From IMG/VR virus record IMGVR_UViG_3300046008_000416, positions 1 through 41,661 of that record: a stretch of 41,661 nt of DNA, one strand, 5' to 3'. Position 1 is the first letter of the stretch; each line of letters starts with the position of its first letter. Source of the DNA: a virus. The notes beneath the pieces are model-generated. The model had not been told where the DNA came from. It saw only the letters and a program-made list of their open reading frames with translations, and did no database searches. Below are positions 6,834-39,866 of the stretch, in pieces. The position numbers and the translations under genes are program-made.

Positions 6834-7324
6834 TGTCTTATGACTTTGGAAAACAGCTTGATGTATCTAAGCTGAAAAAGACTATCCTTAAAAAAGTAAA
6901 TACTGCAATTGAAAATGAGTCAAAAAAAGTTCTTGCTACACTAAGAAGAAGAGTTAACTTCTCCAATGGCAGTGACTACGGTAAAGGAATATCTGCATAT
7001 GACTACATCGGTAATAGTAGTGAGTCCTATAAGAGATGGGATGCTAATGTAAGAATGGTTGGAGATTCAATAAGGGCAGAGTTTGATAATAGTTCAAAAC
7101 ACGCCATATACCTATATTCAAAAACACGATCAGTAGGTCATAATAATGGATTTAGGTCAGCATATCCGCATGAAGAGAATGCTAGAGTCATGGTGAATGG
7201 CAGACTAGTTGAGACTGGGAAGACAAGAGAAAATCAAACATCATTTGCTAAATGGATGAAGTTCAATAGAGACGTTAAGCAGTCAATGATAACCAATATA
7301 AAGAAGGAGTTTAAAATAAAATGA
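6833..7324 (+). CDS. Tail completion protein, HK97 gp10-like by position
   Basis: A 163-residue basic protein beginning with a helix rich in lysines (KLKKTILKKVNTAIENESKK), as in HK97 gp10-type neck proteins. It contains YPHEENARVMVNGRLVETG near the C-terminal third. It lies between the connector and the DUF4128-like gene, the usual place for this family. Confidence 0.65.
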   Translation: MSYDFGKQLDVSKLKKTILKKVNTAIENESKKVLATLRRRVNFSNGSDYGKGISAYDYIGNSSESYKRWDANVRMVGDSIRAEFDNSSKHAIYLYSKTRSVGHNNGFRSAYPHEENARVMVNGRLVETGKTRENQTSFAKWMKFNRDVKQSMITNIKKEFKIK

Positions 7325-25820: not shown

Positions 25821-25837
25821 AAAGGCGATATTGTAGT

Positions 25838-25910
25838 GAAGACTGGTAGGGCTTGAACCTACGACCTGTCTGAGACATGCCCAGTGCTCTACCTGCTGAG
25901 CTACAGTCTT
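25838..25910 (-). tRNA. tRNA-like gene with non-standard anticodon arm
   Basis: A 73-base element read from 25910. Acceptor AAGACTG/CAGTCTT (7 pairs), D arm GCTC/GAGC with GG in the loop, and T arm GTAGG-TTCAAGC-CCTAC are all perfect. The anticodon segment CTGGGCATGTCTCAGAC does not form the normal five-pair stem with a U33-containing loop: the best fold, CTGG/TCAG, leaves GCATGTC with ATG at the anticodon position. CCA is not encoded. It may be a decayed tRNA, a tRNA mimic, or carry an unusual anticodon. Confidence 0.6.
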
Positions 25911-25920
25911 CATGTTAAGG

Positions 25921-26240: not shown

Positions 26241-26792
26241 CTATTCATTAAATAGAAACTTCATATCCTCAGGGATACATTCATACATTGCTTCACTGAC
26301 TTCTCTAATTTGGAAGTGTGCTGAAGATGCTCTACGAAGCTCTAGGAAGTTCTTTAAGCTTCTAGCGTTAAACATTACTGTCCAGTTGTATTGGAAGGCT
26401 TGCGGTAGCATTAGAGATACAATCTCGTTTGATACTCCTTCCTCTATAAAGTCTTCAATCCATATCTTTAGGTGAACAAGTAGCATATCTACTCTATCAT
26501 GCCCAGTAGGCTCAAATACAATATCAGTCTTGTTCAATGTATATCGACTTGACTGACACGCATAACTAGCCATACGATGACGAGTCATTTCAAGTAATAC
26601 TTTTGTACTAGCTGATATGTCAAATGTGAATGTAGCAAACTCCAATACACTAGAGTGCTTATGTTTCAGTGCTACCTTGGTAATACGATTATCACGCTTA
26701 ATTGGGTCTGAATAATCTCCCTTAGCGTAGCAAAGTCCTATACTATGGTCTATCCCTTCAAGTCCTTGATGAGCAATTAGTTTTACTTTCAT
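26241..26792 (-). CDS. thyX: Flavin-dependent thymidylate synthase ThyX
   Basis: Makes dTMP from dUMP with methylene-tetrahydrofolate and FAD/NADPH, supplying the phage dTTP pool. The 183-residue protein carries the ThyX signature RHRMASYACQSSR (residues 71-83), preceded by HSSVLEFATFTFDI with its conserved His, and the C-terminal ARSLKNFLELR. It is somewhat shorter than most ThyX proteins. An ATGA overlap links it to the small upstream gene; MazG-like and DUF3310 genes downstream fit the same pathway. Confidence 0.95.
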   Translation of the reverse strand: MKVKLIAHQGLEGIDHSIGLCYAKGDYSDPIKRDNRITKVALKHKHSSVLEFATFTFDISASTKVLLEMTRHRMASYACQSSRYTLNKTDIVFEPTGHDRVDMLLVHLKIWIEDFIEEGVSNEIVSLMLPQAFQYNWTVMFNARSLKNFLELRRASSAHFQIREVSEAMYECIPEDMKFLFNE

Positions 26793-33227: not shown

Positions 33228-33455
33228 TTAAATCTCTACTCCTATTGTTTTTACTTCAAAATTTTCAACCAATGAGAATAGAGTCTTTTTCATCATATCT
33301 TTCTCATCTCCAAACATATCTAAGAACTCGTCTATTACTGTACCAGCTTCATCCATAGGTACTCTTTCATCATGCACTAATAACTTACCTTGATTACCAG
33401 TAATACGAAACTCATCTTCATAATTTAAATGAATTGTATAAAGTGTTTTATCCAT
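33228..33455 (-). CDS. Hypothetical protein behind a structured leader
   Basis: A 75-residue acidic protein (HLNYEDEFRITGNQGKLLVH, then DEFLDMFGDEKDMMKK). ATG 33455 is chosen because AGGAG lies six bases before it; the ATG at 33461 would be too close. The nested hairpin at 33475-33567 ends 20 bases upstream. Function unknown. Confidence 0.65.
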   Translation of the reverse strand: MDKTLYTIHLNYEDEFRITGNQGKLLVHDERVPMDEAGTVIDEFLDMFGDEKDMMKKTLFSLVENFEVKTIGVEI

Positions 33456-33474
33456 CTCCATCTCCTAATTAATT

Positions 33475-33567
33475 TTGGTAAAGTGTCGATGCTGAGGGAT
33501 TTGACTGATTGCTTACTGAGTTTACGAAGTAAGCTGTCAAACCCGATAAGCTAGAGACCTTTACCGA
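33475..33567 (-). ncRNA. Nested-hairpin RNA leader
   Basis: Three coaxial stems: GGTAAAG (33477-33483) with CTTTACC (33559-33565), GGGATTTGAC (33496-33505) with GTCAAACCC (33536-33544, one bulged A), and GCTTACT (33511-33517) with AGTAAGC (33528-33534), apical loop ten bases. It fills the gap before the 33455 gene. A TATAAG box (33590-33585) about 20 bases upstream would start RNA just before the first stem. No T-run follows, so it reads as a cis-acting leader rather than a free small RNA. It does not fit a tRNA fold. Confidence 0.6.
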
Positions 33568-33596
33568 TTAGCACATTGAATCAACTTATACTAACA

Positions 33597-34016
33597 TCAC
33601 GCAAATGGATTTACCTTTTTTTCTACAACTTCAACCAATGGCTTATCGTCTTGCTTTATCTTAATACCAACATCATCATCGTATAGCATTTCAAATATCT
33701 CTTCTCTGGATAAAAGACCTTCTCTTGCTAAAAGAATAAAATGTTGCATTCTTGCCATTAATATACCATCATCAGTACCTCTATTAGCTTGGTAACCAAT
33801 GTATGCAGTTTCTTCTAATGTCATTTCATTATATGGCTTCTTTCTAAGAGCCTTAGCAATATAATCAGAAGATGAAACAGTTTTTGTACCTATAAGTGCA
33901 ACCAACTCTTCAGACGGATTGAATGGGTCAAACGTCTCAACATATTTTTTATAGTAAACCTTACCCATAGGTGTACTAACCAAATTACTCTTTGTGTAGC
34001 TTTTTTGTGATTTCAT
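33597..34016 (-). CDS. Hypothetical protein with SSB-like KKVNPFA tail
   Basis: A 139-residue protein with an N-terminal basic part (YTKSNLVSTPMGKVYYKKYV), a helical centre and the C-terminal tail VVEKKVNPFA, identical in its last seven residues to the DUF669-type SSB. All seven codons differ between the two genes. It overlaps the RHH gene upstream. No family recognised; a role in the replication or recombination complex is inferred from the tail. Confidence 0.7.
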   Translation of the reverse strand: MKSQKSYTKSNLVSTPMGKVYYKKYVETFDPFNPSEELVALIGTKTVSSSDYIAKALRKKPYNEMTLEETAYIGYQANRGTDDGILMARMQHFILLAREGLLSREEIFEMLYDDDVGIKIKQDDKPLVEVVEKKVNPFA

Positions 34017-34161
34017 TGTGTTCTTTAACCATTAACATTATCGCTTTAGATACGTTTGTAGTTCCATTCTTTTTGAACCCAAATTCTCTTATCATAGATA
34101 ATGTTTTGTCATCAAGCAAAGCAGTAAATCTTACACGCTTATTTTCATTGCTTGTTTCCAC
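33985..34161 (-). CDS. Ribbon-helix-helix DNA-binding protein
   Basis: A 58-residue protein with a basic strand (NKRVRFTALLDDKTLSMI), then the turn FGFKKNGTTNVSKAIMLMV and a lysine-rich end, the RHH (CopG/Arc) order. GTG 34161 is preferred as AAAGGAAAG stands seven bases before it; the frame extends to ATG 34191. It lies next to a 10-bp phased repeat array, a typical operator form for RHH proteins, suggesting autoregulation or a partition/initiation role. Confidence 0.7.
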   Translation of the reverse strand: METSNENKRVRFTALLDDKTLSMIREFGFKKNGTTNVSKAIMLMVKEHNEITKKLHKE

Positions 34162-34191
34162 AGTCTTTCCTTTCTTAAATAATATCATCAT

Positions 34192-34260
34192 ACTATCATA
34201 CTATTTATTAATCTTTTCTTTTTGTTAATCATTGCACTTCTCTCTTTACACACACACACA
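34192..34260 (-). promoter_or_regulatory. AT-rich gap with promoter candidates and CA run
   Basis: Between the RHH start and the repeat array. Leftward the sequence AGTATGATAGTATGATG gives two overlapping TATGAT boxes just upstream of the RHH gene. A (CA) run of seven units lies at about 34247-34260. Confidence 0.4.
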
Positions 34261-34380
34261 CTACCATACACTACCATAGGTAGTCATAGGCTACCATAAC
34301 ATACCATAGGTAACCATATCCTAATATCTGCATAATAAACCATACCAAACCATAGGCTACCATAGGCAACCATAGGCTAT
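34261..34380. repeat. Array of ten or more 10-bp phased repeats (iteron-like)
   Basis: Units of exactly ten bases around CTACCATAGG: CCATA or a one-base variant at 34264, 34274, 34284, 34294, 34304 and 34314, then a degenerate 25 bases, then CCATA at 34340, 34350, 34360 and 34370. The spacing matches about one helical turn, so the same face is presented in each group. It resembles iterons of replication origins or operator arrays of RHH proteins. Not CRISPR: no spacers. Confidence 0.75.
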
Positions 34381-34388
34381 GATTCTGA

Positions 34389-35243
34389 TTACCCAAAAAT
34401 ATCTTTTTTAACTCTGCTCAATGTCAAAGCATTATTATCAAGAACAGTAGTCTCTTCGATAATCTTACTTTCACAAGTAAAGCTAAATGGATTCTCTGTA
34501 AATAGCATATCAATAATCTCAGGATATTGTGTAGCTATTTCAATTTTCTTAACAGCTAGACTGATTGACTTATTAGCAAACTTAATGTTTGGTTTAGCTT
34601 CTAGTACAATAACCTTAGGAGCTTTATTTTTTACAATAACAACAGCTCTTATAGTGGATACAACTATGCCACGATTAATCTGTAACAACGTAGCATACAC
34701 ACTCATTTGTAAAGCATAAGCATTAATATCAGTCACACTCTTATTGGATGTTTTATAGTCAATCACAGTATAAGTACCATCTTTGTTTTTAACTAAAGCG
34801 TCATAACTACCAGCAATCTTAATATCATTGCTAATATCGTATTCAATATATCCTTCTATTTCATCAGGAGTTGGATTCAATTCTAAATACTCTTGTCTAA
34901 ATACAGAGCATACAAGCTGTAAATAGTCTAAGTCGATGTCTGATATGGAAACATCTTTTTCGTTCCTTAGAGATGCCTCTATGTAATCCTTAGGCATACT
35001 CATGTCTTTATTTAACTTTCCTTCATAGTAAAGTTGGGCATATAAGTGGACAAGGGTTCCAAATACAGTATTAGCATTACCAAAGAATGTCTTTTCTTTA
35101 TCAATAACATTCTTCTTCCACATCATTGGATTATCATATAGATTACGCAATCCACTAGGACTAATTACCATACCTTCATAGTTAGCATATTCTGCACCAT
35201 GAGGTTTAATTTCAATCTCATTTATCTTTTCAAATACACTCAT
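34389..35243 (-). CDS. PD-(D/E)XK nuclease (RecB/Cas4-like)
   Basis: A 284-residue nuclease probably acting as an exonuclease in recombination. Motifs: GTLVHLYAQ (motif with His, about residue 62), then IAGSYDALVKNKDGTYTVID and YKTSNKS (D...DYK core, about 142-170), then the YALQMSVYATLL helix (Q..Y motif). These match PDDEXK_1 / RecB-like phage exonucleases. It may feed single strands to the Sak4/SSB pair. The C-terminus is VKKDIFG. ATGA overlap with the small upstream gene. Confidence 0.85.
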   Translation of the reverse strand: MSVFEKINEIEIKPHGAEYANYEGMVISPSGLRNLYDNPMMWKKNVIDKEKTFFGNANTVFGTLVHLYAQLYYEGKLNKDMSMPKDYIEASLRNEKDVSISDIDLDYLQLVCSVFRQEYLELNPTPDEIEGYIEYDISNDIKIAGSYDALVKNKDGTYTVIDYKTSNKSVTDINAYALQMSVYATLLQINRGIVVSTIRAVVIVKNKAPKVIVLEAKPNIKFANKSISLAVKKIEIATQYPEIIDMLFTENPFSFTCESKIIEETTVLDNNALTLSRVKKDIFG

Positions 35244-37756: not shown

Positions 37757-38881
37757 CTAGTCTAAATCAAATGGGTCACTATCTACTGTAGTATTAGCCA
37801 CAACAACCTTCTCAGTATGGATACATTCAGGAAAGTTGGTACATCCCATAAACTTACCGTACTTGCCTTCCTTCTCAATCATATGACCTTTGCCACAAAT
37901 TACACATTCTTTGCCACTATGCTCAATCTTAGGGGCTGTAGTAGTGAACGCTTTATCTGCTGTAAATGATGATGTTTTATAGTTAGCTTTGAATTGTTTA
38001 AGTAGTGCGTTTCTAGCATCCTCATCAATACCCTTGAAACAGTGAATCTTCAATGCCTCATAAACATCTATCCCAGCTTTCATAAGCTTAGCAGTACCAA
38101 TACAAGAACGCATAGTTATCATAATATCTTCAAACTTAGCATCTGCAACAGCTCTCATGGCTCTGAATCCACTTGCTAGTGCTTTATCTCCACATAGCTT
38201 CTCCTCTAGCTCTTCATCTAGCTCAAAGTGTACTAATGCAAATCTATCTAATGTTGCAGCATCTAACTTATTACGCCCTACATACTTAGTATTAGCCCCT
38301 GTTCCAACTGTATTAGCTGTACAAGCCATACGGAAATTATCATGCTTTGTTAGCATATTGCCATCAGGAGTTTCTATAAATCCATTACTAATTGCTGAAT
38401 TAAGAACTACCAATACATTAGGATTACCAGCATCAATTTCATCAAGGTTGAATAATCCGCCATCTCTGAAAGCATGAATAAAGCCGTTATATCTATATAC
38501 CCCATTAGCATCTACAAAGCCAATCAAGTCTGTTTTGGTTGTTTGCATAGATACAGATTGACTATGGAATGGAATTCCTAACCCTTTAGCTACTTGCTGT
38601 AGCGTATGGCTCTTTGAATTACCAGCTTGTCCACTAAGCATTAAATTAGCTCCACTAGCCACAATCTTAGTAATCAACTCAAATTGCTTATGCACTACCC
38701 CAACATCAACGGGTTCGCTTCCGTTATAAGACACTGATAGTAATTTAGTGGTATTTTGAGCAATTCCACCTATAGCTTCGTTTATCTTTTCTTCTATCCC
38801 TAAAGCATTTATATGCTCACCAATTATCTCTGTAATCATAGGCTTAAGTGCTTGCCCTAGTAAATCATTTTGTGTACTCAT
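37757..38881 (-). CDS. MoxR/CobS-type AAA+ ATPase with topoisomerase zinc finger
   Basis: A 374-residue protein: Walker A GQAGNSKS (84-91), pre-sensor loops, Walker B LFNLDEID (143-150), sensor I in MACTANTVGTG, and the Arg-rich VGRNKLDAATLDRF typical of CobS/MoxR ATPases. The C-terminus adds a topoisomerase-I-type C4 zinc finger with C326, C329, C347, C353 (CVICGKG...GCTNFPEC), then DSDPFDLD. MoxR proteins remodel partners, usually with a vWA protein, here the downstream gene. The zinc finger suggests action on DNA. Confidence 0.85.
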   Translation of the reverse strand: MSTQNDLLGQALKPMITEIIGEHINALGIEEKINEAIGGIAQNTTKLLSVSYNGSEPVDVGVVHKQFELITKIVASGANLMLSGQAGNSKSHTLQQVAKGLGIPFHSQSVSMQTTKTDLIGFVDANGVYRYNGFIHAFRDGGLFNLDEIDAGNPNVLVVLNSAISNGFIETPDGNMLTKHDNFRMACTANTVGTGANTKYVGRNKLDAATLDRFALVHFELDEELEEKLCGDKALASGFRAMRAVADAKFEDIMITMRSCIGTAKLMKAGIDVYEALKIHCFKGIDEDARNALLKQFKANYKTSSFTADKAFTTTAPKIEHSGKECVICGKGHMIEKEGKYGKFMGCTNFPECIHTEKVVVANTTVDSDPFDLD

Positions 38882-39060: not shown

Positions 39061-39071
39061 AACTTACCCCC

Positions 39072-39269
39072 TTAGTTAAATGGATTCTTGACAGTATCAA
39101 GTCTCGGTAAACATAAACCCTCAGCTACACTTTGGTTCACGTTGTATAGCTCTGATTTTGTCTTATTAAGCTCAAATTCTAGCTCACTAATTTTGTTTTC
39201 CTCAGTATCAATTACCAATATTAATAAAAAACACATTACCCCTATTATCCCAATTAGCCACTTGTTCAT
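39072..39269 (-). CDS. Small membrane protein with coiled coil and NPF end
   Basis: A 65-residue protein: N-terminal transmembrane helix (WLIGIIGVMCFLLILVI), a coiled coil (ISELEFELNKTKSELYNV) and the tail DTVKNPFN. Layout is spanin-like, but it lies far from the lysis region. The NPF end resembles the shared tail of the two KKVNPFA proteins. Confidence 0.65.
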   Translation of the reverse strand: MNKWLIGIIGVMCFLLILVIDTEENKISELEFELNKTKSELYNVNQSVAEGLCLPRLDTVKNPFN

Positions 39270-39271
39270 AA

Positions 39272-39487
39272 CTATGCCTTTAAATCAATTTTACGGTACT
39301 TACAAGCATCTTCTTTCAATTCTGCAAGCAATCCCATTATTTCCAGCTTATTCTCTAAATAAGCAACTTTACGAGCTAATTTCTCTTCACTGATAATTAG
39401 CTCACATATCTCATTAGCATTCACTAATATTTCCTCATTTACCTCATAAGCAAATCTATTGCTTAATATTTCTGATTTTCTAATCAT
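39272..39487 (-). CDS. Hypothetical coiled-coil protein
   Basis: A 71-residue helical protein (EEKLARKVAYLENKLEIMGL). ATG 39487 is preferred over TTG 39490; it overlaps the stop of the tiny upstream ORF (TGATG). Function unknown. Confidence 0.65.
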   Translation of the reverse strand: MIRKSEILSNRFAYEVNEEILVNANEICELIISEEKLARKVAYLENKLEIMGLLAELKEDACKYRKIDLKA

Positions 39488-39549
39488 CAAAACAACCTAT
39501 CTGCTAGTTTTCCAAACCTTACCTCTAATCTAAGCAAAAACCATTTCAT
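39487..39549 (-). CDS. Possible 20-residue coupled peptide
   Basis: ATG 39549 overlaps the upstream stop (ATGA) and its own stop overlaps the downstream start (TGATG). AGGATTAG lies upstream. The peptide is basic and amphipathic (MKWFLLRLEVRFGKLADRLF). The exact overlaps at both ends favour translation, but size limits certainty. Confidence 0.45.
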   Translation of the reverse strand: MKWFLLRLEVRFGKLADRLF

Positions 39550-39866
39550 ATTCTAATCCTCATTCCATTTTCAAATTTTTGCGTCTCTTCATTCTGGCTA
39601 TTATATAAATACCAGATACCTTTTTTCTGTCTAATGTGATAACCCAATAACTCCAATACTGCATTAATTCTACTCTTCGTGGTTGTTGTTAGATAACCGC
39701 CATTATTAATGACCAGAAAGCCATCTAGGCTTATTCTAGCTACTGTGGTATCCCACAACTTCATACATATTTCACCATCTCTATTATGGAATACTTCTGT
39801 ATTATCCCGTTTCATAGGCTTAAAATCCCAAAATGATCTAGCCATATCTTCTGATATTTTACGCAT
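39546..39866 (-). CDS. Conserved phage protein of unknown function
   Basis: A 106-residue protein with RDNTEVFHNRDGEICMKLWD, then VARISLDGFLVINNGGYLTT and TTKSRINAVLELLG. This NT...V / GGY.T.TTK.R.NA order is a pattern seen in a widespread small phage protein family without known function. ATG 39866 follows the upstream stop directly. Confidence 0.7.
   Translation of the reverse strand: MRKISEDMARSFWDFKPMKRDNTEVFHNRDGEICMKLWDTTVARISLDGFLVINNGGYLTTTTKSRINAVLELLGYHIRQKKGIWYLYNSQNEETQKFENGMRIRI

Follow-up and report, generated by a model that had tools for sequence, protein, structure and literature searches.

Small ribbon-helix-helix (RHH) proteins that act on repeats lying just upstream of their own gene are known from the Arc/CopG-type repressors, such as Arc of phage P22 and the proteins of PHROG 3180, which consist of a single domain. 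The Arc operator is short, with two half-sites. In the type Ib partition systems, the RHH proteins Omega of pSM19035 and ParG of TP228 coat iterated sites and act as promoter repressors as well, the Omega repeats being 7 bp long. Type II partition systems, in the gene order parC-parM-parR, likewise use an RHH protein, ParR, which binds direct repeats of 10 bp in pB171 or 11 bp in R1, ParR proteins of different families binding only their cognate arrays (PMC9426499). In R1, parC is split into two blocks with the promoter between them (PMC5016525).

The locus described here lies in the window, a 41.7-kb tailed-phage record from IMG/VR (IMGVR_UViG_3300046008_000416, analysed over all of its 41,661 nucleotides). 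The + strand encodes the terminase, portal, major head protein and tape measure, and the – strand carries an early/replication arm with a primase, a Sak4-like annealing protein, a single-strand binding protein and a PD-(D/E)XK exonuclease. The phage is without detectable lysogeny genes, and a search for a tyrosine integrase, run with working controls, returned none. Two other genes of the – strand were observed in passing: a thymidylate-synthase-like protein of 183 aa (26241–26792), which matches its PHROG profile only over 371–575 of 866 and may be a short form or fragment, and a CobS-like AAA ATPase (37757–38881; PHROG 249, 'porphyrin biosynthesis') to which a topoisomerase-type zinc ribbon is fused. 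An array of 10-bp direct repeats lies in the interval that separates the nuclease gene, which ends at 34389, from a gene for a 58-aa protein, which probably starts with GTG at 34161; the array and the features around it are as follows:

33434–34389, no strand assigned: exchanged cassette, comprising array, RHH gene, 139-aa gene and leader; unrelated DNA in the sister phage (L002 6855–7930)
33597–34016, – strand: next gene, for a 139-aa protein without a known family; it shares 32 nt with the RHH gene
33985–34161, – strand: gene for a probable RHH protein, 58 aa, GTG at 34161 with an AAGGA-type ribosome site just upstream; the mechanical open reading frame extends to 34191
34200–34228, – strand: weak promoter-like TTAACA-17-AATAGT, between array and RHH start
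34261–34320, – strand: block 1, made of six 10-bp units whose core reads ACCATA on the + strand and TATGGT on the transcribed strand
34321–34336, no strand assigned: inter-block gap, the first unit to its left and the first to its right being 26 bp apart, about 2.5 turns
34337–34376, – strand: block 2, made of four 10-bp units, with a further, degenerate one (TCTGCATAAT) at 34327–34336
34398–34427, – strand: weak promoter-like TTGACA-18-GATATT at the nuclease gene's 3' end; L002 has it too

The array proper occupies 34258–34378 and contains ten units with an ACCATA core, set at an exact 10-bp step in blocks of six (starts at 34261, 34271, 34281, 34291, 34301 and 34311) and four (34337, 34347, 34357 and 34367), with a degenerate eleventh unit at 34327 as the fifth of block 2. 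Exact ACCAT is read at 34263, 34273, 34293, 34303 and 34313 in block 1, and at 34339, 34349, 34359 and 34369 in block 2. When the units are aligned, columns 5–8 (CATA) are invariant in 10/10 units, columns 3 and 4 each show a single change, and each of the four spacer columns shows 4 or 5; the unit is best given as ACCATAnnnn, a 6-bp conserved core followed by a 4-bp variable spacer. Mismatches number 2/60 in the core versus 18/40 in the spacer (Fisher P = 4e-7; permutation over windows 0/100000). The lag-10 self-identity of 34258–34388 is 0.60 (z = 7.4), a value reached by 0/2000 dinucleotide-preserving shuffles, and five ACCAT share one 10-bp phase, against a maximum of 3 in 2000 shuffles. 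No other site in the whole window comes close to the array, which is its strongest period-10 site (z 7.8).

These unit positions and lag-10 shuffles confirm what a sequence-only reading had described, namely at least ten units of exact 10-base period in groups of six and four, and the neighbours that it named are also in place, the array ending 100 bp from the RHH start and the nuclease gene ending at 34389. Its span of 34161–34388 holds for the array but has to be narrowed, since 34161–34257 is only an AT-rich spacer that reaches the likely GTG start and lies outside the array proper. As to its further statement that each block faces one side of the helix, each block is in strict phase with no indels inside it. 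Because 10.0 bp differs from the pitch of B-DNA, the drift of the sites would come to about 17 degrees with each unit and to 86 degrees across six of them, at 10.5 bp/turn, and because of the 26-bp offset of block 2 from block 1 the two blocks would face roughly opposite sides. Two by-products of the repeats were seen within the array: a terminator-like site, rejected on that ground, and a very hydrophobic 30-codon reading frame (34271–34363, – strand; MVAYGLVWFIMQILGYGYLWYVMVAYDYLW), with no ribosome site seen, which is probably of the same origin.

A sister phage (contig 3300042400_000575; L002/L005) is about 98–99% identical to the window on both flanks of this site. Within it, the stretch between the stop codon of the nuclease gene and the first conserved gene beyond, with array, RHH gene and partner gene, is replaced as a whole by 1.08 kb of unrelated DNA. 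The replacement is built to the same plan, with a 179-bp upstream region, a gene for an Arc-like RHH protein of 51 aa (phrog_3180, E 2e-5) and a 139-aa gene that again overlaps it by 32 nt. The sister's 42.9-kb record has no ACCATA array, and the upstream region there has a hexamer of its own, ARTACT, in four copies at 6930, 6942, 6954 and 6972 (spacings of 12, 12 and 18 bp); 0/20000 mononucleotide shuffles held as many, for a motif that was picked after inspection. Among the phages compared, one genome has the ACCATA array, and the leader of the L002 type is also found in L008, a more distant relative. Contigs L003 and L006 end near the site, which is suggestive of several alleles breaking the assembly.

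The exchange is not unique to this site. The segment at 39070–39760, with small unknown genes, is a second one replaced between the window and L002, and a tRNA-His gene (25836–25911, – strand) is cleanly missing in three relatives (L005, L006 and L007), in which homology resumes at 25831 and 25917. Since other segments also differ between these phages, the exchange alone is no proof of a link between array and RHH gene. The leader of the conserved 77-aa gene (33462–33585, – strand) folds well, with z –3.2 and no shuffle as good; it has a closing stem GGTAAAG/CTTTACC and no Rfam match, and it is replaced in L002 by a leader that folds not clearly better than shuffles.

The 58-aa protein is basic. 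Searches of Pfam, PHROGs and NCBIfam, and six-frame searches with PF01402 and phrog_3180, gave it no RHH match, and RHH homologues were found neither by back-translation in viral contigs nor by tblastn in named phages. A single-sequence AlphaFold2 model is β-α-α (strand 18–24, helices 28–42 and 47–67) with a pLDDT of 77. Foldseek returned nothing significant for this model, which is a weak negative because Foldseek fails likewise with a monomer model of the sister protein, which is clearly Arc-like. Near full-length alignment with the 51-aa sister protein gave a score of z = 4.9, equalled in 1/1000 shuffles, with no match by BLASTP, and hhalign against a three-sequence RHH profile gave E 0.014 at a low reported probability (3%). 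We regard the 58-aa protein as a probable RHH protein, and hold the fold itself with moderate confidence. For the 139-aa protein, profile searches matched no motor family and no toxin family, no homologues were found in phages, and the proteins of the two cassettes are not detectably similar to each other. The one viral match of its gene, in L054, is a local one to a DnaC-like ATPase and was judged spurious.

Set beside the described systems, the locus resembles the Arc/CopG type in having a small single-domain protein with repeats just ahead of its gene, and PHROG 3180 is matched by the protein of the sister cassette; in place of two half-sites, however, there are ten phased sites in two out-of-phase blocks. 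With ParR/parC it shares a probable RHH gene, two blocks of direct repeats of 10 or 11 bp and a proposed cognate-only specificity, but no motor gene was found, the 58-aa protein is without the ParR C-terminal domain, and the order is operator, RHH gene, gene of no known family. The sequence-only reading had proposed a binding array of the Omega/ParG kind, and this is partly supported. The contrast between core and spacer, the Arc-like homology and the joint exchange speak for an RHH binding array, whereas the Omega/ParG comparison fits the binding geometry only, as no ParA-type ATPase was found here.

We consider it reasonably probable that the array serves the adjacent 58-aa RHH protein as its cognate operator, cooperatively bound, probably autoregulatory, and part of an exchangeable early-gene cassette. 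It is from the observed geometry, core conservation and cassette swap that we infer binding, cooperativity and the direction of regulation. Phased repeats with a conserved core adjoin a regulator gene, which is what characterises an RHH-controlled operator array, and array, RHH gene and partner are replaced together in the sister, where a different hexamer stands upstream. Against this, the 58-aa protein matches no RHH profile, a single genome carries the array, 100 bp separate it from the RHH start, and a strong promoter is not apparent: a promoter scan found no more sites than in shuffles, neither of the two candidates rising above background. In the proposed mechanism, RHH dimers would place a β-ribbon in the major groove of every ACCATA core and, within each block, stack cooperatively from one 10-bp step to the next, so as to coat the leader/promoter region that separates the RHH operon from the nuclease gene. 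As the protein accumulates, it would shut down transcription of its own gene, of the 139-aa partner gene that overlaps it and probably of early genes further downstream. Since searches with working controls found neither a ParA-type ATPase nor a tyrosine integrase, the likeliest output is transcriptional autoregulation of the early operon. Array, regulator and partner would form one exchangeable cassette, so that operator and protein specificity change together.

That the array is a neutral tandem repeat, produced by slippage in a non-coding gap and bound by no protein, appears unlikely to us. Decamer satellites of ACCATA do occur in many unrelated genomes, and the array borders on a (CA)n run. 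There is nothing special about the word as such, since in viral contigs 41 stretches of three ACCATA units at 10-bp steps were found against 48 for a control with the reversed core. By eye, no RHH gene was recognised beside these viral arrays, and BLAST of the array against phages and plasmids gave only chance-level fragments. Yet slippage does not account well for a core retained while the spacers drifted, for strict phase in two blocks with no indels inside either, or for a location directly ahead of the RHH operon. Among 84,980 genomes, 54 stretches with four ACCATA units were found, and because nearly all of them have identical spacers or are (ACCAT)n 5-bp satellites, it is unusual for spacers to drift about a core that is retained. 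Slippage commonly yields ACCATA arrays as such; this one is set apart by its drifted spacers, its pair of blocks and its site before a swapped RHH operon. We consider it highly improbable that the array acts as RNA, in a structured leader transcribed from the nuclease side and controlling the RHH gene. The transcribed strand does fold better than shuffles (z = –2.6), but a partly self-complementary repeat word folds well anyway, a 10-bp step is a constraint of the DNA helix and not of RNA, and Rfam gave no match on this strand and only a sub-threshold chance match on the other.

An iteron-type replication origin, at which the primase/helicase or another initiator would bind the decamers and melt the AT-rich 34170–34240, would share with this locus direct repeats by an AT-rich stretch, and the primase gene is about 1.8 kb away. 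The sister's primase is nevertheless 100% identical while the array is missing from its record, so that a primase-bound essential iteron origin is unlikely, and GC skew, which the sequence-only reading had put forward as a check, tracks the direction of the genes, with turning points at about 24 kb and at the ends but none at 34.3 kb. We give the initiator version little chance, and the iteron likeness noted earlier is disfavoured, though an origin might be bound by the cassette's own protein. We place very little credence in a centromere-like parC/parS site with the RHH protein as adaptor, despite the resemblance of two 10-bp-repeat blocks ahead of an RHH gene to the split R1 parC and the pB171 repeats (PMC5016525, PMC9426499). 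A Pfam AAA_31 search for a ParA-type ATPase was negative in both phages, with controls at 14/14; the annotated ORFs gave no actin-like match, and the StbA_N search for ParM was also negative, a weak result as its control set rang nowhere. There is also no tyrosine integrase, and the 139-aa protein matches no motor family. As a special case of the operator reading, RHH and 139-aa proteins might be an antitoxin-toxin pair: the RHH gene comes first, overlaps the second by 32 nt and follows operator-like repeats, with the same layout in the sister. This is improbable, since neither of the 139-aa proteins matches a toxin family and, at 58 and 51 aa, the RHH proteins leave hardly any tail that could bind a toxin.

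Taken as an operator, the array is an ordinary kind of regulatory element in unusually long form, and the natural allele swap makes it testable. Quite speculatively, and with a low probability, the cassette could be an exchangeable specificity module in which the RHH protein coats cognate arrays on co-infecting genomes and silences or excludes them while genomes with another cassette escape. It would then serve a virulent phage family as a region of immunity or incompatibility. If the operator reading is true, these near-identical phages would constitute a natural swap experiment in which protein and repeat word change together, and the RHH recognition code could be read from matched pairs of protein and repeat. 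A further gain would be a regulator with about ten phased sites from a phage that lacks a ParA-type partition ATPase, a case for testing whether long RHH arrays serve partition only.
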